64,000 nucleotides of DNA from Streptomyces sp. H27-H1 (GTDB taxonomy: Bacteria > Actinomycetota > Actinomycetes > Streptomycetales > Streptomycetaceae). How positions within the stretch are numbered: the stretch's first letter is position 1; each line of letters starts with the position of its first letter. This document shows, piece by piece, positions 8,881 through 41,830 of this stretch. A model generated the notes under the pieces. It did not search any database and was not told the DNA's origin. It saw nothing but the letters and a program-made list of their open reading frames with translations. The stretch lies in assembly GCF_026627445.1 (NCBI RefSeq), contig NZ_JAPNLJ010000001.1, positions 124,001 through 188,000 of the forward strand, read 5' to 3'. The translations under genes were made by a program, and so were the position numbers.

Positions 8881-8948
8881 GGTGGAAGAGTGGCCCAGAC
8901 TTCCGCTTCTGAAACGCGTCCCCGGGAAACCCGCCGGGCGGGGGTCCC

Positions 8949-8985
8949 GGCGGTCCGAGCCGCGGTACGGCGTGCTCGGACCGCC
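8949..8985 (-). terminator. Strong hairpin terminator after the PLP-lyase operon
   Basis: A perfect 12-base stem (GGCGGTCCGAGC against GCTCGGACCGCC) with a 13-base loop lies 13 bases beyond the stop of the minus-strand lyase gene. Confidence 0.8.
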
Positions 8986-8998
8986 TTCGGACGGCCGG

Positions 8999-10162
8999 TC
9001 AGCTCTCGGCGGCCGCCAGGTCCAGTGCCCGCAGGACGTCCGTGACCAGGTCCTCGGTGTCCTCGGCCCCCGCCGAGAAGCGGATGAACCCCTCCGACAC
9101 GGCGTCGCCGCCCCACCGTCGGCGACGCTCAGCGGTGGACCGCACCCCGCCGAAACTGGTGGCGTCCTCGACGAGCCGCAGGGCGGCCATGAACCGTTCC
9201 GCGTGAGCGCGGTCGGCCAGGGTGAAGGAGACCACGGAGCCGAAGCCCCGCATCTGCCGCACGGCAGTCTTGTGGGACGGGTCCGCAGGCAGGCCCGGGT
9301 AGCGCAGCCCGGTGACGTCGGCGCGGCCGGCGAGGGCCTCGGCGACGGCGAGCGCGTTGGCCCACTGGCGCTGGGCGCGCAGTTGGATGGTGGACAGGGA
9401 CCGGTGGGCGAGCCAGGCCTCCATGGGGCCGGGGATCGCGCCGACCACCTTGCGCCAGCGGCGGATGCCCGCGGCGAGCTCGGCGTTGCGGCAGACGACG
9501 TAGCCGAGCAGCAGGTCGCCGTGGCCGGTCAGGCCCTTGGTGCCGCTGGCCACCGAGAAGTCGGCACCCAGTTCGAGGGGGCGTTGGCCGAGCGGGGTCG
9601 CGAGGGTGTTGTCGACGGCGACCAGGGTTTCGCCGGCGCGAGCCGCGTCCACGAGGCGTCGTACGTCGCAGACGTCGAGACCCGGGTTGGACGGGGTCTC
9701 CAGCCACAGCAGCCGGGCCCCGTCGAGGACCTCGAGCTGGGCGTCCTCGCCGGTGGGGGCGGTGCGCACGTGGATCCCGTACGCCTCCAGCTGCTCCCGT
9801 ACGAGGGGCAGTACCTGGTAGCCGTCGTCGGGCAGGACGACGGTGTCGCCGGCGCGCGCCTGGGAGAGCAGGACGGCGGACACCGCGGCCATGCCTGAGG
9901 CGAAGACGACCGTGTCCACCCCGTCCAGGCCGGGGGCCTCCAGCTCTCCGATGGCCTGCTCCAGCAGGGTCCAGGTGGGGTTGGTGTCGCGGCCGTAGGT
10001 GTAGGGACCGTCGACGTCGCCGGGCAGGTGGAAGTGGGCGGCGAAGACGGGGCCGGGCAGCGGTGGCTCGTTCTTGACGGGCTCCGGCAGGCCGGCGCGG
10101 ACGGCGACGGTGCCGTCGCCGAGCCGGTCCGTCTTCGCAGGCACGGGGTCGGGGGCGCTCAT
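8999..10162 (-). CDS. Cystathionine gamma-lyase/synthase-family PLP enzyme
   Basis: A 387-residue Cys/Met-metabolism PLP-dependent enzyme. The pyridoxal lysine is in SGTKGLTGHGD, after the conserved LVAVDNTLATPLGQRPLELGAD strand; the cofactor phosphate region is FASGMAAVSA. Family members make or cleave cystathionine and related thioethers; this one is closest in style to cystathionine gamma-lyases, but specificity is not certain. The ATG at 10162 has a GAAGGAG site and overlaps the stop of the phosphatase gene as ATGA, so translation is coupled. Third gene of the operon from 11043. Confidence 0.87.
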   Translation of the reverse strand: MSAPDPVPAKTDRLGDGTVAVRAGLPEPVKNEPPLPGPVFAAHFHLPGDVDGPYTYGRDTNPTWTLLEQAIGELEAPGLDGVDTVVFASGMAAVSAVLLSQARAGDTVVLPDDGYQVLPLVREQLEAYGIHVRTAPTGEDAQLEVLDGARLLWLETPSNPGLDVCDVRRLVDAARAGETLVAVDNTLATPLGQRPLELGADFSVASGTKGLTGHGDLLLGYVVCRNAELAAGIRRWRKVVGAIPGPMEAWLAHRSLSTIQLRAQRQWANALAVAEALAGRADVTGLRYPGLPADPSHKTAVRQMRGFGSVVSFTLADRAHAERFMAALRLVEDATSFGGVRSTAERRRRWGGDAVSEGFIRFSAGAEDTEDLVTDVLRALDLAAAES

Positions 10163-10650
10163 GGGGTGTGCTCCTTCACGGCTTCGCTGACGGCGGCCAG
10201 CAGGCCGGGGCTCGCCGCCTCGACCAGGTGCAGGCACTCCTCGAATCCGTCGAGGGGGCCGTAGTAGGGGTCCGGGACGTCGGTCTGCGCGGCGGTGGCC
10301 GAAGGGTCGTAGGACCGCAGCACCCGGACCTTGGCGGCGTCCTCCGGGGTGGGCGCGAGCGCCCTCAGGTCACGCAGGTGGCCGGCATCGAGCGCGATGA
10401 CGAGGTCGAGGCCGGCGAACCAGGAGGCCCGGAAGCGCCGGGCCCGGTGGCCCGGCTCGTACCCGGCGGCCTCCAGGACGGCGATGGTGCGCGGGTCGGC
10501 CCCGTCCCCTTCGTGCCAGCCACCCGTGCCGGCGCTGTCGACCTCGACCAGGTCCGCGAGCCCGGCGTCGGCCACGTGGGAGCGGAAGACCGACTCGGCC
10601 ATGGGCGAGCGGCAGATGTTGCCGGTGCAGACGAAGCACACGCGGTACAT
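10159..10650 (-). CDS. ptpA: Low-molecular-weight protein tyrosine phosphatase
   Basis: A 163-residue LMW-PTP. The active-site loop CTGNICRS (CX5R-S) is at residues 8-15 and the general-acid aspartate lies in the DPYYGP motif near residue 128. The enzyme removes phosphate from phosphotyrosine proteins; Streptomyces PtpA has been linked to secondary metabolism. It sits 12 bases after the upstream membrane-protein gene and overlaps the downstream lyase by four bases. The symbol rests on family and neighbourhood (near ssgR-ssgA) and was not verified by alignment. Confidence 0.9.
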   Translation of the reverse strand: MYRVCFVCTGNICRSPMAESVFRSHVADAGLADLVEVDSAGTGGWHEGDGADPRTIAVLEAAGYEPGHRARRFRASWFAGLDLVIALDAGHLRDLRALAPTPEDAAKVRVLRSYDPSATAAQTDVPDPYYGPLDGFEECLHLVEAASPGLLAAVSEAVKEHTP

Positions 10651-10662
10651 GGGCAGCCGGCT

Positions 10663-11043
10663 TCAGTTCTTGTCGGGCAGGACCATGTTCACGGCCCAGG
10701 AGACGATGGAGATGATCAGGGCGCCGACGACCGCGGTCCAGAAACCGTCGACGTGGAAGCTGAGGTCGAACTGGGTCGCCAGCCACGAGGTCAGCAGCAG
10801 CATCGCCGCGTTCACGACGAGGGTGAACAGACCGAGGGTGAGGACGAAGAGGGGCAGCGAGAGCAGCTTCACCACGGGCTTGACGATGAAGTTGACCAGG
10901 CCGAAGATCAGCGCGACCAGGATCAGGGAGAGCACCCGGCGGCCCATGCTGCTGCCGTCGTCCAGCGTGATGCCCGCGAGGAGCCAGATGGCGACGGCGA
11001 GGGCGGCCGCGTTGGCGAGGGTCTTGACTACGAAATTCGTCAT
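10663..11043 (-). CDS. Phage-holin-family-4-like small membrane protein
   Basis: A 126-residue protein with four hydrophobic segments, matching the widespread bacterial family labelled phage holin 4_2 (the NFIVKPVVKLLSLPLFVLTLG segment is its hallmark). Despite the name it is a chromosomal housekeeping-type membrane protein of unknown function, and no other phage genes are nearby. It is the first gene of the operon with ptpA and the PLP lyase. Confidence 0.82.
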   Translation of the reverse strand: MTNFVVKTLANAAALAVAIWLLAGITLDDGSSMGRRVLSLILVALIFGLVNFIVKPVVKLLSLPLFVLTLGLFTLVVNAAMLLLTSWLATQFDLSFHVDGFWTAVVGALIISIVSWAVNMVLPDKN

Positions 11044-11133
11044 GTGTCTGATCGTTGCAGAGATGATCCCGGTGGAACATCAGCTGATCTGCGGATGCTT
11101 GCCGTACGTGAGAGGACGAGAGGTGCGAAGAAG

Positions 11134-11451
11134 ATGAAGGCCTTCCGGCTGGACGAGCTAGAGGCCGAGCGGGCCGCGAACAAGGGCGCCTACCTGCAGT
11201 TCCTGCGCGAGCGGAACATGTCGGTCGGCCTGTACGCGCTGGACGCCGGGCAGAGCGATCCCCAACAGCCGCACGGCCAGGACGAGGTGTACTACGTAGT
11301 GAGCGGCCGGGCCTCGATCACCGTCGGGGAGGAGACGACGATGGTCGCGAACGGGAGCGTGGTCTACGTGCCGGCCGGGGTGCCGCACAAGTTCCACCAC
11401 ATCACCGAGAACCTGAAAGTAATGGTCGTCTTCTCGCCGCCGGAAGGGTGA
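11134..11451 (+). CDS. Cupin domain protein
   Basis: A 105-residue single-domain cupin. The metal-binding motif 1 is read as PHGQDEVYYVVSG and motif 2 as VYVPAGVPHKFH, so histidines and a glutamate for a bound metal are present. Single-domain cupins act as dioxygenases, isomerases or ligand sensors; no specific role can be assigned. Start ATG 11134 follows AGAGGTG. It is divergent from the ptpA operon. Confidence 0.8.
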   Translation: MKAFRLDELEAERAANKGAYLQFLRERNMSVGLYALDAGQSDPQQPHGQDEVYYVVSGRASITVGEETTMVANGSVVYVPAGVPHKFHHITENLKVMVVFSPPEG

Positions 11452-11495
11452 ACGGACCACGGGACCGACGCGGGGACTGAGGGTCCGGGGCGCCG

Positions 11496-11542
11496 GCCCC
11501 CTAGGGGGCGGATCAGGGGACTCCGGGGGCTCGCGGGCCCCC
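11496..11542 (+). terminator. GC-rich hairpins after the cupin gene
   Basis: A perfect 14-base palindrome GCCCCCTAGGGGGC (11496-11509) is followed by a second GGGGGC/GCCCCC stem (11525-11542). It is probably a terminator separating the cupin gene from the small membrane protein. Confidence 0.5.
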
Positions 11543-11609
11543 ACCGGGGGCCGTGGCCTCCTAGCATCGAGAGCAGGAAGTCACGGACTAGGAAGAAGAG
11601 GTCGAGGAC

Positions 11610-11837
11610 ATGGAAGGCATCCGAGGGATATTCGAGGGCATGCCCTGGTGGGTCAAGTGGGTCGCGGTTCCGCTGCTGGTCCTGTTCGTCTTCGGCGGCG
11701 TGATCACCAGCATCCTCGGCGCGCTGATCGGCTTCGTCTTCAAGGCGCTGCTCCTCGTGGCCCTCGTCGGTGGCCTGATCTTCGTGGTCAAGAAGTTCAA
11801 GGGCACGGAGTCGAAGTCCTCCGCTGGAGAGTGGTAG
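11610..11837 (+). CDS. Small membrane protein, DUF5326-like
   Basis: A 75-residue protein with an amphipathic N-terminus (MEGIRGIFEGMPWWVKW) and two closely spaced hydrophobic segments, ending in a charged tail. It matches the small Streptomyces family annotated DUF5326. The preceding GGAAGAAGAGG is an adequate ribosome site. Function is unknown. It precedes ssgR, separated by a 258-base leader region. Confidence 0.75.
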   Translation: MEGIRGIFEGMPWWVKWVAVPLLVLFVFGGVITSILGALIGFVFKALLLVALVGGLIFVVKKFKGTESKSSAGEW

Positions 11838-36134: not shown

Positions 36135-39100
36135 TCAGGCCGAGGCGCGCAGCAGGTGTTCCGCGGTGCGCTCGGCGCTCTCCAGCAGCCACGCCGGGGC
36201 CGCGCCCTCGGGCAGCGCGCGGACCTCGGCCGCCAGTGCCTCGACCCGGGCGGCGCCGGCTGCGGGCCGACCCAGCTCGCGTTCGGTCCAGGCGGCGTTG
36301 TTCACGCACTGGAAGCGGGCCTCCAGGTGGTCCGGGCCGAGCTCCGCGTGCAGGGCGGCGGCCCGCTCCCAGAGCAGGATCTCCTCCAGCCGCAGGGCTT
36401 CCAGCTCTGCCGAACCCAGCGGTTCGGCGGACGATTTCAGGTCCTGGCTCTGCGGCTGTCCCTCCCCTTCCTCTTCCCCTTCTTCGTCCAGCTCCTCGTC
36501 GGCGCGGACCCGGCGGTCGAGGATCTGGGCGAGCTGGTTCCAGGTCTCGGCGAGTTCGGCCCGCGCCTCGGCGTCGTCGGGAGCGTCCGCGAGCGCGGCG
36601 GTCAGCACCTCGGCCGCCTCGTCCATCCGGAGCCGGGCCCCCGCCACCGCCGCGTCGCTGACCTCTTCGCGCAGCCCCAGCCAGGCCAGCGAGCGCAGGA
36701 TCCGCACCTCGGCGACCGGTGCGTCCTTCGATCGCCGGCGCAGTTCGAGGGCCCGCTCGTAAGCGGCGACCGCCTCCGGCACGAGCCGGGCCTCGGAGAG
36801 CTGATCGGCGGCGGCCTGGGCGAAGTTCGCCTGCGGACGCGGGTCCTCCCAGTCCTCGGCGACCTCCGCCGCCAGCAGGTACTGCTCGGCCGCGCCCCGG
36901 GGGTCGTGCAGCTCGCGCAGCAGGTCGCCCAAAAACTCGCGTACGGAAACGGCCTGGCCCTCGCCGTGCTCCAGCAGGTCCGGCAGTGTCGACTGCAGCA
37001 CCTCGGCCGCCTCGGCGGTGTGCCCCTCGCGGGCGCGGCACCGGGCGAGCAGCAGCCGGGCCTGGGCTCCGCCATCGGCGGTGAGTCCGGCCTGGTCGAA
37101 CCAGTGCGCCGCCTCCAGGGCGTGCAGTGCGGCCTCGGCGTCGGCCTCGCCCCGTCCCAGCAGGATGTCGGCGAGGGTGAGCCGTACGACGCCCTGCGCC
37201 TCGGCGTCGGTCACTTCGGCGGCGTGCGCCAGCCCCGCACGGGCCGACTCCTCGGCCTCCGCCACGCGCTCCAGTGACATCAGCACCCCGGCCCGCAGCA
37301 CGAGCGGGTCCACGGCGAGCCATGGCCGGCCCGCGGTGGCCGAGCGGGCGGCCGAGTCGGCGAGCAGGCTCACGGCATGTTCGGGGTCACCCTGCGAGAG
37401 GGCGAGCCGGCCCAGCATCTCCTCGGCCTCCGCCACCACGTCGGGCAGGGCTTGGACGTAGGCGTCGGCGAAGGCGGCGAGCTCGGTGGCCAGCTCGCCG
37501 TGCCCGTGCTCCGGGCCGCGCCCATGGCCGTGCCCGTGCCCATGCCCGTGTTCGGGGTCCTCGGCGGCCTCGACCGAGCGCAGGTACGACTCCACCCGGA
37601 TCCCGGTCAGTTCCGCGAACGCGATCCGGCGGGTCCGCAGCGGGTCGTTCGCGTCCAGCGCCTCGGCGGCGCGCAGGGCCACGGCCAGCAGCTCACGCAG
37701 CTCCCCCGCCTCGGTGCCCGACTGCGCGGCCACGGTCGCCAGCCGCAGCTCGGCCAGTGCGGCGCGCTCCGCGAGTCCCAGCTCCCGGTACCGCTCGCGT
37801 ACGCCGGCCAGCAGCTGCGCGGCGTCCGCGGAGCCGGCCCGCGCCGCCGCCAGGGCCCGGTGATCCGCCACATCGGCGGCGACCAGCGGGTCGGCCCCGG
37901 CGCCGGGACGCAGGGCCACCTCGTCCCAGAGCGTGTCCGCGCCGGGGTGCCCGAGGTCCCGTGCCTCCCGGGCCCGTTCCACGAGCTCCGCGAAGCCCTC
38001 GGCCGGGGCCGCCGCGGGCACCTGGGTCCGGTCCGGGACGGGGGCCGCCTCGGGGAGCGCCGCGAGCGCCGAGCTTCGTACGCCCAGCGGCAGGATCGTG
38101 GTCAGCGGGGCCCGGTCGATCCGGGCGAGGAACCGCTCCGAGACCCGGGGGGCGCCATTGCGCGCGTCGAACCGCCGGGCGATGTCGAGCGAGCTCGCGC
38201 GCAGCACCTCGTGCAGCTCGGACACGGTGCGCGGGCTGCCCTCGTAGCGGATGGCGGGGCTCTGTCCGTGTCCCAGTTCCGTCAGCCGGCGCAGCAGGAC
38301 GAGGATCCCGCCGTGGAAGGCCAGCTGGTCGGAGAGGTTGGCGAGCGGGGTCACGTGCGCCGCGTGCTCGGCCAGGATCTCCAGGCCCCGGGACTCGTTG
38401 CCGGTGAGCGCGCAGAACTCGATGTGCCGTCCCACCGAGGGCAGCAGGCTCTCCTTGCCCCGGGCCAGGCGGTACCCGCGCAGATGGGCCGAGCGGGCCT
38501 CGTCGGCCCGGCCGAGCCGTACCAGCGGCAACAGCGAGGTGGCCAGGACGCGGTGGGGCTCTTCGGCGCAGGTCCGCTCGCCGGACAGCACCGGCTGCCA
38601 GAGCTCCAGGGCCTCGGCGTCGTTGCCGCGCAGCATGGCGTACTGGCCCTGGCTGTTGAGTTCGCAGGCGTGGCAGTCGCTCATGTCGTCGCGGTCGGCG
38701 GCCTGCCAGCGCGCGTACGCCCGCCCGGCCCGCTCGTCGTCGCCGGTCGCGTCGGCGAGCCACAGCTCGGCCTCGCGCACGGGGCGCTCGCTGTAGCCGG
38801 CGATCCGGTAGCGGCGCTCCATCTCGTCCAGCCAGCCGGCGGCCGATTCGAGGGGGATCTCGGGGGAGTTGCCGATGGCGCTGGCGATCCACTTGAACTG
38901 CCAGAACAGCGAGTGGGAGTCCCACTCGTCGAAGGCCCCGGGGTCCTTGTCGTACTCCTGGAGCAGCCGGGCGAAGGGGACGAGCATCTTCGGCGACTCG
39001 GAGCTGTAGAGGTAGGCGTTGATCAGGTTGTCCAGTGCCTGGCGGAACAGCGCTCGGTCCCCGGTCGCTTCGGCGGCGGCTGACAGCACCTCGGCGTGGG

Positions 39101-39170
39101 CATTGCGTGCCGTTCCGCCCGGAGCCTGGCGGTTCTCGGCCAGTTCGCGCTCGACTTCCTCGCGTGTCAT
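36135..39170 (-). CDS. Giant TPR-repeat protein partner of HSP90
   Basis: A 1,011-residue, almost wholly alpha-helical protein with many tetratricopeptide-like repeats from about residue 40 to the C-terminus; clear units are visible in residues 600-820 (ALE, EAVAAYERALELRRR patterns). No enzymatic domain was recognised. Near residues 537-558 is a His/Gly run (HGHGHGHGHG), and near 890-903 a stretch of Glu. It begins 5 bases after the HSP90 stop without its own well-spaced ribosome site, so translation is coupled. A co-chaperone or scaffold role is inferred. Confidence 0.83.
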   Translation of the reverse strand: MTREEVERELAENRQAPGGTARNAHAEVLSAAAEATGDRALFRQALDNLINAYLYSSESPKMLVPFARLLQEYDKDPGAFDEWDSHSLFWQFKWIASAIGNSPEIPLESAAGWLDEMERRYRIAGYSERPVREAELWLADATGDDERAGRAYARWQAADRDDMSDCHACELNSQGQYAMLRGNDAEALELWQPVLSGERTCAEEPHRVLATSLLPLVRLGRADEARSAHLRGYRLARGKESLLPSVGRHIEFCALTGNESRGLEILAEHAAHVTPLANLSDQLAFHGGILVLLRRLTELGHGQSPAIRYEGSPRTVSELHEVLRASSLDIARRFDARNGAPRVSERFLARIDRAPLTTILPLGVRSSALAALPEAAPVPDRTQVPAAAPAEGFAELVERAREARDLGHPGADTLWDEVALRPGAGADPLVAADVADHRALAAARAGSADAAQLLAGVRERYRELGLAERAALAELRLATVAAQSGTEAGELRELLAVALRAAEALDANDPLRTRRIAFAELTGIRVESYLRSVEAAEDPEHGHGHGHGHGRGPEHGHGELATELAAFADAYVQALPDVVAEAEEMLGRLALSQGDPEHAVSLLADSAARSATAGRPWLAVDPLVLRAGVLMSLERVAEAEESARAGLAHAAEVTDAEAQGVVRLTLADILLGRGEADAEAALHALEAAHWFDQAGLTADGGAQARLLLARCRAREGHTAEAAEVLQSTLPDLLEHGEGQAVSVREFLGDLLRELHDPRGAAEQYLLAAEVAEDWEDPRPQANFAQAAADQLSEARLVPEAVAAYERALELRRRSKDAPVAEVRILRSLAWLGLREEVSDAAVAGARLRMDEAAEVLTAALADAPDDAEARAELAETWNQLAQILDRRVRADEELDEEGEEEGEGQPQSQDLKSSAEPLGSAELEALRLEEILLWERAAALHAELGPDHLEARFQCVNNAAWTERELGRPAAGAARVEALAAEVRALPEGAAPAWLLESAERTAEHLLRASA

Positions 39171-39175
39171 CGGGC

Positions 39176-41017
39176 TCACTTCTGCTCCTCCTGGGCGTCG
39201 GCGGGGTGGGTTGCCCATTCCAGAAGCCCGAGGAAGGCCCGGTTGAGCAGGGTGGTGTCGGCTGCGCGCAGCGGCCGCTGCGATCTCAGGAGGGCCTGGC
39301 CGTAGAGGGATTCGACGGCGGTGGCGGTGAGGGCCTCGTCGGGGAGGGCGGCGATCCGGCGGATCAGCGGGTTGTTGTGGTTGAGCACGAGGCGGGCGCG
39401 CGGAGCGGAGCCGCGCAGCGAACCGAGGATGCCGCTCCACAGCGAGTCCGCGGTGTCGAGGGCGGCGGTGCGCTCGCGTTCCTGACGGGCCTGGCGGTCG
39501 TCGAGGTAGAGCGCGGGGACGGCGGCGGGCTGGAAGGCGCGCAGGACGACGTCGCAGCTCTGGGGTTCCAGCCTGGTGCGGGCATTGGCCAGGAACGGGG
39601 CCAGGGCCAGTTCGGCGGAGGTCGGTACGGGATCTAGGCGTTCGGTGACGGCTCCCGCGTCGAGCTCGGTGACCTTGAGCTCCGGCCGTACGGCGGGCAG
39701 CAGGGCCAGCAGGTCGGCGTCGTAGGTGTAGCCGGCGTTGATGACTCCGAGGCCGTGGGCCGCTGCGATCGGGGCGATCTGGCGGAACTCCTCGACGGTC
39801 CGGGTGAAGTGGATCTCGGTGTGCGCGGCGGCGAACTGCTCCAGGTTCATCGAACCGTCGCTGGTCTCGAACGGCAGCCAGGGCAGCATCAGGCCGAGCA
39901 GCTCGGCATCGTGCCGGGCCAGTGACTTCACGCCCAGGTGGTGGACGCTCAGGAAGGCCGCCAGCCGCTCGGGTTCGCTCGCGGCGAGCTCGGAGAGCCA
40001 GGCGCGGACGCGGGCGCCGAGGGCCTCGCGCACGGCGGCCAGGGTCTCGTCGTCGTACAGGTTCTCGCGGGAGGCGGTGGGCCGCAGCGTGTCGGTGTCG
40101 AGGACGGCGCGGACGAAGAACGCCCAGTCGGGCAGCAGGTTGTCGGCGTTGTCGGTCAGCAGCATGCCCTTGAGGTGGACTCGGTGTCCGGACCGGTGGG
40201 CGGGGCTGGTCGGCTCGGGCAGGACGTACGCGACTCCGCGCACTCCGGCCACGGGCAGGTCGAGGTCGATGCTGTCGAGCGGGGTGAAACCGAAGAGCTG
40301 CGCGCAGTGCCCGGCGAGGGCGACGCGGCGGGCCGCGGGGGTGGGGAAGGGCCGGTCCCAGACGGGGGGCCGGTCGGTGACCGGGCGGGGCCCGGTGTCG
40401 GAGCCGTCGTCGAAGGTGATGTCGTAGGGCAGCAGGGAGCCGTAGTCGCGGGCCAGCTGCTCGACCTTGGCCGGGACGGTCCACTCCTCGGCGCCGGGGC
40501 GGACCTCCAGGACGACGGTGGTGCCGGGCTCCGGGCGGGCGTCGTGGGGCAGTTCGCGGACGGTGTACGAGCCGTCGTCCGTGGCCAGCCATTCGACGGG
40601 GGCGGCCAGGGGGTCGCGTGCGGAGCGGGTGATCACGCGGATCCGGCGGGCGACGACGAAGCAGGCGAGCAGGCCGATGCCGAACTGGCCGAGGAACTCC
40701 TGCCGGGTGGTCTCCAGGCCGTGCGGGCCTCCGCGCTTGGAGCTGCGGCCGATGGTGGCGAGGAGGGAGTGGGCCTCGTCGGCGGTCAGGCCGATGCCGC
40801 TGTCCTCGATGGTCACGCGGTTCCCGGTTGCCGACAGGCGGATGCTGATCTCGGCTTCGCGATCCAGGGCGTGGCGGGCGGTGACCGCGTCGACGGCGTT
40901 CTGGAGGAGCTCGCGGACGTAGACGCGCGGGCTGGAGTAGAGGTGGTGGGAGAGCAGGTCGACCAGGCCGCGCAGATCGACCTGGAAGGTGTTCGCATGG
41001 GGCTCTTCGGACATCAT
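39176..41017 (-). CDS. HSP90-family (HtpG-like) ATP-dependent chaperone
   Basis: A 613-residue HSP90. The GHKL ATP pocket is intact: ELLQNAVDA at 36-44 (catalytic Glu36, Mg-binding Asn40), DSGIGL at 72-77 and GQFGIGL at 110-116. The middle domain has the catalytic arginine in TASREN (Arg317, equivalent to E. coli HtpG Arg336). A C-terminal dimerisation region follows. Length is near HtpG. It ends in EEQK rather than MEEVD. A GAGGTG site precedes ATG 41017. The downstream TPR gene is translationally coupled. Chaperone activity is expected; clients are unknown. Confidence 0.9.
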   Translation of the reverse strand: MMSEEPHANTFQVDLRGLVDLLSHHLYSSPRVYVRELLQNAVDAVTARHALDREAEISIRLSATGNRVTIEDSGIGLTADEAHSLLATIGRSSKRGGPHGLETTRQEFLGQFGIGLLACFVVARRIRVITRSARDPLAAPVEWLATDDGSYTVRELPHDARPEPGTTVVLEVRPGAEEWTVPAKVEQLARDYGSLLPYDITFDDGSDTGPRPVTDRPPVWDRPFPTPAARRVALAGHCAQLFGFTPLDSIDLDLPVAGVRGVAYVLPEPTSPAHRSGHRVHLKGMLLTDNADNLLPDWAFFVRAVLDTDTLRPTASRENLYDDETLAAVREALGARVRAWLSELAASEPERLAAFLSVHHLGVKSLARHDAELLGLMLPWLPFETSDGSMNLEQFAAAHTEIHFTRTVEEFRQIAPIAAAHGLGVINAGYTYDADLLALLPAVRPELKVTELDAGAVTERLDPVPTSAELALAPFLANARTRLEPQSCDVVLRAFQPAAVPALYLDDRQARQERERTAALDTADSLWSGILGSLRGSAPRARLVLNHNNPLIRRIAALPDEALTATAVESLYGQALLRSQRPLRAADTTLLNRAFLGLLEWATHPADAQEEQK

Positions 41018-41156
41018 GGGGCGTCACCTCGGGTGCTGGTACAGGCTGTTCGGCAACCGCGAGGTACCCCCCTCACAGATCCCGGAGTGAGCAACAGAGT
41101 AGGGGGATGATCTGACAATCCCTCCGTGAATTCCGGGCCCGCGGGACTTCTCCGGG

Positions 41157-41696
41157 TTATTGGAACCGCAGGAATTGCGGCGGCACGGAGTCCACCAGCC
41201 ACACCCCGTTGGCGCTGATCCGAAAGACGTGTCCGGCGGCCCGCATCGCCCCCGCGTCCACGGCGAGGACGATCGGCCGGCCGCGCCGTGCGCCGACGCG
41301 GGTCGCGGTCTCGCGGTCCGGGGACAGGTGGACGTGGTGGCGGGCCATCGGGCGCAGCCCTTCGGCACGGATCGGGTCCAGGGCGGCCGCGACGGTGCCG
41401 TGGTAGAGGTACGCGGGCGGTTCGGCCTCCGGCAGGTCCAGGTCCACGGGGACGGTGTGTCCCTGGCTGGCGCGGATCCGGCTGCCGTCGACGGCGAAGC
41501 GCTGCTTGTCGTTGGCGGCGACCACGTGGTCGAGCTCGGCCCGGCTGATGGGGAAGTTGTGGGCGGCCGCCGCGTTCAGGAGGTCCTCGATCTCCACCCA
41601 GCCTTGTGGGTCGAGCACCAGTCCGATGCGTTCCGGCTGATGGCGGAGGTGTTTCGAGACGTATTTGGACACCTTCACGGTGCGGTTGTCGTTCAT
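41157..41696 (-). CDS. kptA: RNA 2'-phosphotransferase (Tpt1/KptA)
   Basis: A 179-residue enzyme that transfers an RNA 2'-phosphate to NAD+, giving ADP-ribose cyclic phosphate. The catalytic residues are in place: Arg18-His19 in HLRHQPE, Arg75 in IRASQGH, followed by LYHGT and HVHLS of the ADP-ribosyltransferase fold. Eukaryotic Tpt1 finishes tRNA splicing, but bacteria lack that pathway and the bacterial substrate is unknown. ATG 41696; divergent from the aquaporin gene. Confidence 0.93.
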   Translation of the reverse strand: MNDNRTVKVSKYVSKHLRHQPERIGLVLDPQGWVEIEDLLNAAAAHNFPISRAELDHVVAANDKQRFAVDGSRIRASQGHTVPVDLDLPEAEPPAYLYHGTVAAALDPIRAEGLRPMARHHVHLSPDRETATRVGARRGRPIVLAVDAGAMRAAGHVFRISANGVWLVDSVPPQFLRFQ

Positions 41697-41830
41697 TTGC
41701 CCAGGGTGACGGCTCGGCCGGTCCGGCGCAGCGAATTTCTGACGCTCTGCCCTACCGGGACGCCCTCTATCGCGTTTCCGGGATACGGAATACATTTTCC
41801 GATGAACCGCCAGTCAAGAGGAAGAAAACC

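Follow-up and report, generated by a model that had tools for sequence, protein, structure and literature searches.

Eukaryotic Hsp90 associates with tetratricopeptide repeat (TPR) co-chaperones such as Hop/Sti1 and Cpr6. For bacteria, the available portions of two papers state that Hsp90 has no identified co-chaperones taking part in protein remodeling (PMC7926864) and that none are identified for Escherichia coli HtpG (PMC4428384). The accessible text of Chen et al. (2006, PMC1525184) recognizes three HTPG groups (A, B, and C) and assigns Streptomyces coelicolor two HTPGs of different groups, of which HTPG2 is 615 amino acids long; the term "TPR" occurs 0 times in that text. A 2012 review (PMC3603443) saw nothing to indicate that HtpG has a specific role in a streptomycete and notes that the geldanamycin producer encodes a single Hsp90 family protein. 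Here we report on a 64,000-nucleotide stretch of the Streptomyces sp. H27-H1 genome (contig NZ_JAPNLJ010000001.1, positions 124,001 to 188,000; hereafter "the window") in which the gene for an Hsp90 protein is followed, after 5 bases (39171-39175), by the gene for a much longer helical-repeat protein. Because this non-HtpG Hsp90 adjoins and evolves together with its large neighbor, our findings suggest that a dedicated partner protein exists for some bacterial Hsp90s. A survey of titles and abstract openings, mostly of open-access literature, turned up no description of a TPR protein sharing an operon with a bacterial Hsp90. A known Hsp90 family is here joined by a protein of TPR-like predicted structure, and this pairing is real, conserved, and apparently undescribed.

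The Hsp90 of the window is a full-length member of NCBIfam family NF010683 ("HSP90 family protein"; PRK14083) and not a canonical HtpG. It scores 821.2 bits on the family model (cut-off 455), with residues 6-609 aligned to model positions 3-602 of 604, and 183.2 bits on the HtpG model NF003555, below the cut-off of 371. We refer to proteins of this type as Hsp90-C. The residues Glu36, Asn40, and Arg317, described as intact in the first-pass annotation of this DNA, are invariant in a 14-row alignment of 12 NF010683 members and two HtpG-type proteins, as are Asp72, Gly74, and Gly76. More broadly, the ATP-site Glu and Asn, the DxGxG and GQFGxG motifs, and the middle-domain Arg, all of which have known functional roles in Hsp90 proteins, are invariant in every one of these sequences, and Leu571-Tyr572 is invariant in the C-terminal region. 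Because the ATP-site and middle-domain residues never vary, Hsp90-C likely hydrolyzes ATP. The Bergerat-type ATP site, the middle-domain Arg, and a C-terminal LYxQA-like motif are features that Hsp90-C and canonical HtpG have in common, whereas the window protein is only 21-23% identical to the two HtpGs and falls in a separate clade. In a maximum-likelihood tree of 50 proteins, 29 NF010683-type sequences form one group (support 100/100), 12 canonical HtpGs including that of E. coli K-12 form another (100/100), and nine divergent Hsp90s form a third (97/84); the program warned of long branches, and the root is a midpoint root only, which in the drawing puts the divergent group on the same side as HtpG. 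The NF010683 entry names the Hsp90 alone and mentions no partner. An earlier suggestion that this locus is an undescribed system thus applies to the pairing but not to the Hsp90, whose family was already catalogued. Going by the available text of PMC1525184, the 615-residue HTPG2 of S. coelicolor has the size of an NF010683 protein, and the family probably corresponds to the Group C HTPG of that paper, with the Group C sequences themselves standing outside our tree. A motif comparison placed the S. hygroscopicus "HtpG" studied biochemically (Millson 2011, cited in PMC3603443) neither clearly inside nor clearly outside the family.

The association between the two genes is most evident within the genus. 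Among 61 genomes, Hsp90-C is present in 38 (43 loci), and the N-terminal domain of the partner (hereafter the N-domain; 43 full loci) is present in exactly these 38; another 22 have neither. All 43 loci are adjacent and paired one to one, with 8-104 nucleotides (nt) between the Hsp90 and N-domain matches. This count sets aside genome G028, which has an Hsp90 fragment at a contig edge and a weak N-domain fragment on another contig, as well as every Hsp90 match of at most 36% identity and, in G012, an Hsp90 fragment 68 residues long; the two pieces of Hsp90 in G010 were taken together as a single locus. In a phylum-wide sample of 396 genomes, Hsp90 exceeds the cut-off in 12, a strong N-domain match is present in 13, both occur in 11, Hsp90-C alone in one, the N-domain alone in two, and neither in 382 (Fisher p ~1e-18, without correction for relatedness). 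The N-domain numbers in this sample are lower bounds based on the five best first-look candidates per genome, and four weak partial matches (E values of 8e-6 to 3e-4) were left uncounted.

Both genes were also found in 78 of 80 named loci, which are the best 80 of 564 relatives and are biased toward Actinomycetota since the query is actinobacterial; the remaining two (L115 and L138) end less than 200 bases from the match at contig edges. Adding the window and eight further loci (L162, L163, L165, L243, L246, L248, L255, and L256) gives a set of 89, outside of which lie L200 and the three loci L244, L245, and L247, where Hsp90-C occurs without the N-domain. Both genes are present in 87 of these 89 loci, on the same strand in all 87, and in 81 the Hsp90 match is followed by the N-domain at a distance of 0-250 nt. 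Departures from this spacing include a 1-nt overlap in L153, a gap of 296 nt in L139, and Listeria, where the better-scoring second copy of the partner was measured. Outside Actinomycetota, the N-domain accompanies an NF010683 Hsp90 in Listeria, in Paenibacillus, and in three of the six assessable genomes of a planctomycete survey. That survey covered 199 genomes of the phylum of G454 (the genome of a locus titled Schlesneria MAG, Planctomycetota), of which seven have an Hsp90 of the family above the cut-off: the N-domain adjoins in three (twice in one, upstream in another), is absent from three, and could not be judged in G454, where the locus ends at a contig edge.

The simplest explanation for the locus would be an ordinary HtpG with an unrelated gene next to it. 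It is true that the window protein reaches 183 bits on the HtpG model and that the genome has no other Pfam HSP90 match. However, this score is below the HtpG cut-off, the NF010683 cut-off is greatly exceeded, and the group of 29 stands apart from the 12 HtpGs with full support. Furthermore, at least 13 of the 38 pair-bearing genomes of the genus have a second Hsp90 match (28-31% identity), and therefore the pair is not simply a replacement for HtpG. Adjacency is also kept where the flanking genes change. Among 18 canonical-type HtpG loci of about 14 kb each, chosen by hand from Hsp90 matches that did not reach the NF010683 cut-off and represented in the tree by 11 members, none has an N-domain partner. 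Given the pairing in the genus, these HtpG loci, the tree, and the lack of a third conserved gene (see below), we reject an ordinary HtpG operon as scarcely credible. The possibility that the Hsp90 homologs mostly occur without the TPR gene, on which the initial proposal could have foundered, is likewise not what we observed.

Joint inheritance was assessed in two ways. Distance matrices for Hsp90 and the N-domain are strongly correlated (r=0.934, with 0 of 999 permutations as high), but this value includes shared descent, and vertical inheritance alone could produce it. Paralogs provide a better control in this respect. Six genomes of the genus have two pairs, and in all six the second type of Hsp90 lies beside the second type of partner, never crossed. 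The second-type partners are 52-91% identical among themselves and 40-45% identical to first-type partners.

Only the two genes are conserved as a unit. We clustered 2,038 open reading frames (ORFs) of at least 100 amino acids from 36 chosen loci, which bear 30 labels: 25 for distinct genera or higher groups and the remainder for subgroups of Streptomyces, Microbacterium, and Nocardia. Among the 14 largest clusters, Hsp90 and the partner are found in 30 of 30 labels, the four that come next (in 27, 21, 6, and 5 labels) are exemplified by ORFs overlapping the two genes in a different frame, and the others reach three labels. Leaving out those four, no additional family is present in more than three of the 30 labels, and a third conserved gene in the module was rejected. 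Except for a few isolated matches in distant genomes, the genes flanking the pair in the window find counterparts only in close relatives.

The features of the locus are collected in Table 1. Both genes and the short gap between them are on the minus strand as originally annotated, and the two are probably expressed from a single transcript. The hairpin after the partner gene, which the first-pass annotation took to be the sole terminator of the operon, exists and might serve this function, but it has no T-run and was not called by an intrinsic-terminator scan.

Table 1. Features of the Hsp90-C locus and its partner protein (positions within the window).
Feature	Position	Strand	Details
Hsp90 gene	39176-41017	-	613 aa; ATG start; family NF010683
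TPR partner gene	36135-39170	-	1,011 aa; ATG start
Partner N-terminal domain (residues 1-370)	38061-39170	-	predicted all-helical; predicted local distance difference test (pLDDT) 95.3 when modeled alone
Partner C-terminal TPR superhelix (residues 391-1011)	36138-38000	-	predicted fold; higher dN/dS than the N-terminal domain in 6 of 7 comparisons
Cys166-x-x-Cys169 motif (DCxxC)	38664-38675	-	part of putative metal site
Cys201 of C-x-x-[EQ]-P motif	38568-38570	-	third residue of putative metal site
His-Gly-rich tract	37500-37559 (approximate)	-	in or beside low-confidence loop; not conserved
Glu-rich tract	36463-36503 (approximate)	-	in or beside low-confidence loop; not conserved
Hairpin after partner stop codon	36092-36128	-	37 bases; possible terminator lacking a T-run; arms of 18 nt with 89% complementarity
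Upstream region of the pair	41018-41120	-	strongly conserved among the window and 7 close relatives; includes arms that could pair with the ribosome-binding site

The partner protein has no match in NCBIfam, PADLOC, or Protein Data Bank sequences, and by sequence its TPR identity is weak (best Pfam match TPR_19, E=0.006, below the cut-off). The TPR label given to it initially thus has weak backing at the level of sequence but is clear from the predicted fold. The model of the whole protein is confident (pLDDT 92.5; predicted template modeling score 0.86), and its helix-turn-helix repeats are predicted to form a superhelix, as expected of a TPR protein. The superhelix resembles those of LGN (6hc2_E; Z 24.6, root-mean-square deviation (rmsd) 6.7, 338 residues aligned) and O-GlcNAc transferase (1w3b_A; Z 20.7, rmsd 9.6, 387 aligned), with residues 391-884 the most covered. 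For the N-domain, the best match is chain O of the anaphase-promoting complex structure 4ui9 (Z 21.1, rmsd 5.0, 324 aligned), which we take to be APC5, and similar helical-repeat folds are found in domain III of MalT (Z 20.0, rmsd 5.0, 319 aligned), in NprR (Z 18.7, rmsd 4.5, 299 aligned), and in Rap (Z 17.3, rmsd 5.8, 301 aligned). These N-domain matches are at 9-12% identity. All of the fold similarities are of a common repeat type and indicate neither descent nor function.

Although the partner was first noted for its giant size, length is not essential to it. Paenibacillus cellulosilyticus has one partner of 353 amino acids and Listeria monocytogenes has two in tandem (324 and 320 amino acids), and because these proteins are so short, the core of the partner appears to be the N-domain. 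This is the part conserved across Actinomycetota, the two Bacillota, and some genomes of the planctomycete survey. In the L. monocytogenes locus L162, the tandem N-domain genes following the NF010683 Hsp90 occupy positions 9815-11783, and two are present in G504 (L243) as well. The His and Glu tracts pointed out in the window partner are present, but they are absent or different in relatives and are thus lineage-specific inserts. Within the N-domain, Cys166, Cys169, and Cys201 are each retained in 26 of 27 aligned sequences, and the remaining one, L157 from Murinocardiopsis, lacks all three. This joint loss suggests a putative metal site, probably for zinc.

Rates of change differ along the pair. 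In seven comparisons, the ratio of nonsynonymous to synonymous substitution rates (dN/dS) is lowest for Hsp90 (0.14-0.23), and the C-terminal region of the partner is faster than the N-domain in six (0.35-0.66 versus 0.22-0.49), with L136 as the exception. All values for Hsp90, the N-domain, and the C-terminal region are below 1 in all seven comparisons, which indicates purifying selection and led us to reject diversifying selection.

We lean, if only slightly, toward the view that the locus encodes a two-gene chaperone module composed of Hsp90-C and its own dedicated co-chaperone or adaptor. A module of this kind had been proposed from the sequence alone; the pairing it presumed is now well documented, and the co-chaperone role is a proposal. 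Hsp90-C would be a dimeric clamp of the HtpG superfamily, driven by ATP and working with a single obligate partner. The helical N-domain, perhaps stabilized by the three-cysteine site, would dock on Hsp90-C, and the variable C-terminal superhelix, where present, might capture clients or regulatory ligands and present them to the clamp. We place docking in the N-domain because a partner can be as small as the 320-residue protein of Listeria. Docking would involve the body of Hsp90-C, because there is no MEEVD tail to serve this purpose. As was recognized at the outset, the window Hsp90 ends in EEQK rather than MEEVD; tails vary across the family, with no MEEVD ending among those listed, so we reject MEEVD-like docking. 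Nor is EEQK itself likely to act as a docking motif, since it is not kept in the family, and its codons hold an AGGAGG Shine-Dalgarno-like run located 16 bases ahead of the partner start codon, so perhaps its sequence is shaped by translation. The window partner further differs from Hop/Sti1 and Cpr6 in length and domain make-up, and genetic linkage may take the place of the shared binding motif used in eukaryotes. ATPase activity, dimerization, metal binding, direct contact, and the adaptor role would all be expected of such a module.

Several observations weigh against this view. A conserved operon can also reflect a chaperone and its client, and the distance correlation has the limit noted above. 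A Nocardia genome with two pairs shows no clear sorting with either type. Hsp90-C occurs without an N-domain neighbor in G383 (L200) and in three loci of the planctomycete survey (L244, L245, and L247; about 2.8 kb downstream is covered in L245). Conversely, N-domain proteins without an adjoining Hsp90-C are present in G229, G262, and Actinomyces oris, two of the three being near or fused to YbjN domains. The arrangement itself is disturbed in L117 (Dermabacter hominis), where an NAD synthase gene (9969-10805) lies between the two genes (945-nt gap), in L121, where the match is limited to the second half of the N-domain and lies at a distance of 565 nt, and in L248, where the partner is upstream. 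Finally, the putative metal site has three assigned Cys ligands and no fourth.

Some of these atypical loci have other neighbors. The divergent NF010683 Hsp90 of G383 is adjoined by a different TPR protein of 297 amino acids, and the same stretch contains type I restriction-like and exonuclease genes. In L244, a 686-residue protein with DUF2225, HEAT repeats, and CxxC motifs (8885-10945) is encoded 2.7 kb after Hsp90-C and is a possible substitute partner. The N-domain proteins lacking an Hsp90 neighbor are those of L198 (6957-8609), L164 (6172-10889), and L199 (5802-9014); one is fused to and beside a YbjN domain, and another has a YbjN gene about 1.2 kb upstream. The N-domain may therefore pair with other partners.

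The client relationship just mentioned deserves consideration in its own right. Perhaps Hsp90-C mainly folds or stabilizes the long superhelix, and the superhelix does a separate job. One-to-one pairing and the chaperone-first gene order fit a chaperone-client operon, and the partner is indeed long and repetitive. However, the partners of 320-353 residues in Listeria and Paenibacillus are paired as well, and thus size is not the reason for the association. Moreover, related N-domain proteins exist away from Hsp90-C, and it is the N-domain rather than the long repeat region that is most conserved. On balance, we regard a dedicated client as distinctly unlikely.

A sensor-effector or immune-type function is another possibility, in which the TPR superhelix would sense a trigger such as a phage product, a stress ligand, or a foreign protein, and Hsp90-C would hold or release an effector. 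MalT, NprR, and Rap, whose folds the predicted N-domain resembles, are ligand sensors. The pair is patchily distributed (38 of the 61 genomes of the genus), some copies are on records labeled as plasmids, although several of these are chromosome-sized, and the G383 copy is near the type I restriction-like gene noted above. Furthermore, in other Hsp90 lineages the effector would be a Toll/interleukin-1 receptor (TIR) domain fused to Hsp90, and such fusions occur near TPR genes in the separate divergent clade (L249 and L168). Because of these fusions, a signaling or immune role remains conceivable. Against it, the window pair contains no effector domain, no effector gene is common to the loci, the neighbors are stable among close relatives of the window, and dN/dS gives no sign of diversifying selection. 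In PADLOC-DB 2.0.0, Hsp90 has only partial matches to N-terminal ATPase regions (TmtA, 1.9e-7; a type II restriction enzyme, 2.3e-6) and the partner has none; with no full-length match for either gene, a known anti-phage system was rejected. The TIR fusions also lie outside the clade of the window, theirs being on the HtpG side of the midpoint-rooted drawing, and their TPR neighbors have no demonstrated homology to the N-domain. We consider a sensor or immune function for the window pair to be unlikely.

Within the divergent clade, the Hsp90 of L249 (6990-9608, minus strand; planctomycete survey) carries a C-terminal TIR domain (PF13676, TIR_2; E=1.1e-19) and is followed by three tandem genes for 383-residue proteins, the first of which, the one scanned, is a clear TPR protein. 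In L168 (5944-8574, plus strand; a Pseudanabaena plasmid), the TIR match is weaker (PF10137, E=0.001) and a TPR gene is located two genes downstream. The divergent Hsp90s of L166 (Xanthomonas), L167 (Pseudomonas aeruginosa), L254, and L257 are followed by proteins of 764-946 amino acids that have TPR matches (short of the Pfam cut-off for L166 and L167) and a CxxC motif at a place similar to that in the N-domain. Homology between these neighbors and the N-domain was not detected: hhalign gives a probability of 6.6%, and the N-domain hidden Markov model has no hits in the four loci. The next ORF in L251 (644 amino acids) has no Pfam match and no TPR, and that of L250, read as a carboxyltransferase without TPR, is probably in the wrong frame.

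It is tempting to speculate that bacteria long ago came to equip Hsp90 with a dedicated TPR partner, independently of eukaryotic co-chaperones, and that this arrangement served as a chassis both for a housekeeping or regulatory form (the Hsp90-C clade, whose N-domain partner has the cysteine site) and for immune-type forms (the divergent clade, in which Hsp90 carries its own TIR effector and the TPR genes can be multiplied). The tree, however, does not show the TIR-bearing clade to be sister to the Hsp90-C clade, and we judge this scenario to be rather improbable. In plants, Hsp90-SGT1-RAR1 supports TIR-type immune receptors, and if the chassis scenario were true, the parallel would represent convergence. 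Either way, Hsp90-TIR fusions near TPR genes make a connection between bacterial chaperones and immunity testable.

A conserved, genetically linked partner would change the picture of bacterial Hsp90 as a chaperone without co-chaperones. The pairing runs against the usual statement to that effect and is simple to test. As a two-protein system, it would present the coupling of Hsp90 and partner free of the twenty or more co-chaperones of eukaryotes, and it opens the question of what Hsp90 does in streptomycetes.

The remaining observations concern the DNA upstream of the pair. In the leader (Table 1), CCTCG/CGAGG arms could hide the ribosome-binding site, as an RNA thermometer might do. However, this region has no Rfam match and no unusual folding energy (z -0.69), and an RNA thermometer was rejected. 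Approximately 140 bases from the Hsp90 start is a gene on the minus strand (41157-41795) for what is presumably an RNA 2'-phosphotransferase (KptA/Tpt1). Among the loci, this gene is matched only near the window-like pairs of close relatives, and it was rejected as a functional neighbor. The closest named relatives of the window are Streptomyces, for example Streptomyces sp. TBY4 (L122), whose Hsp90 is 94.5% identical.

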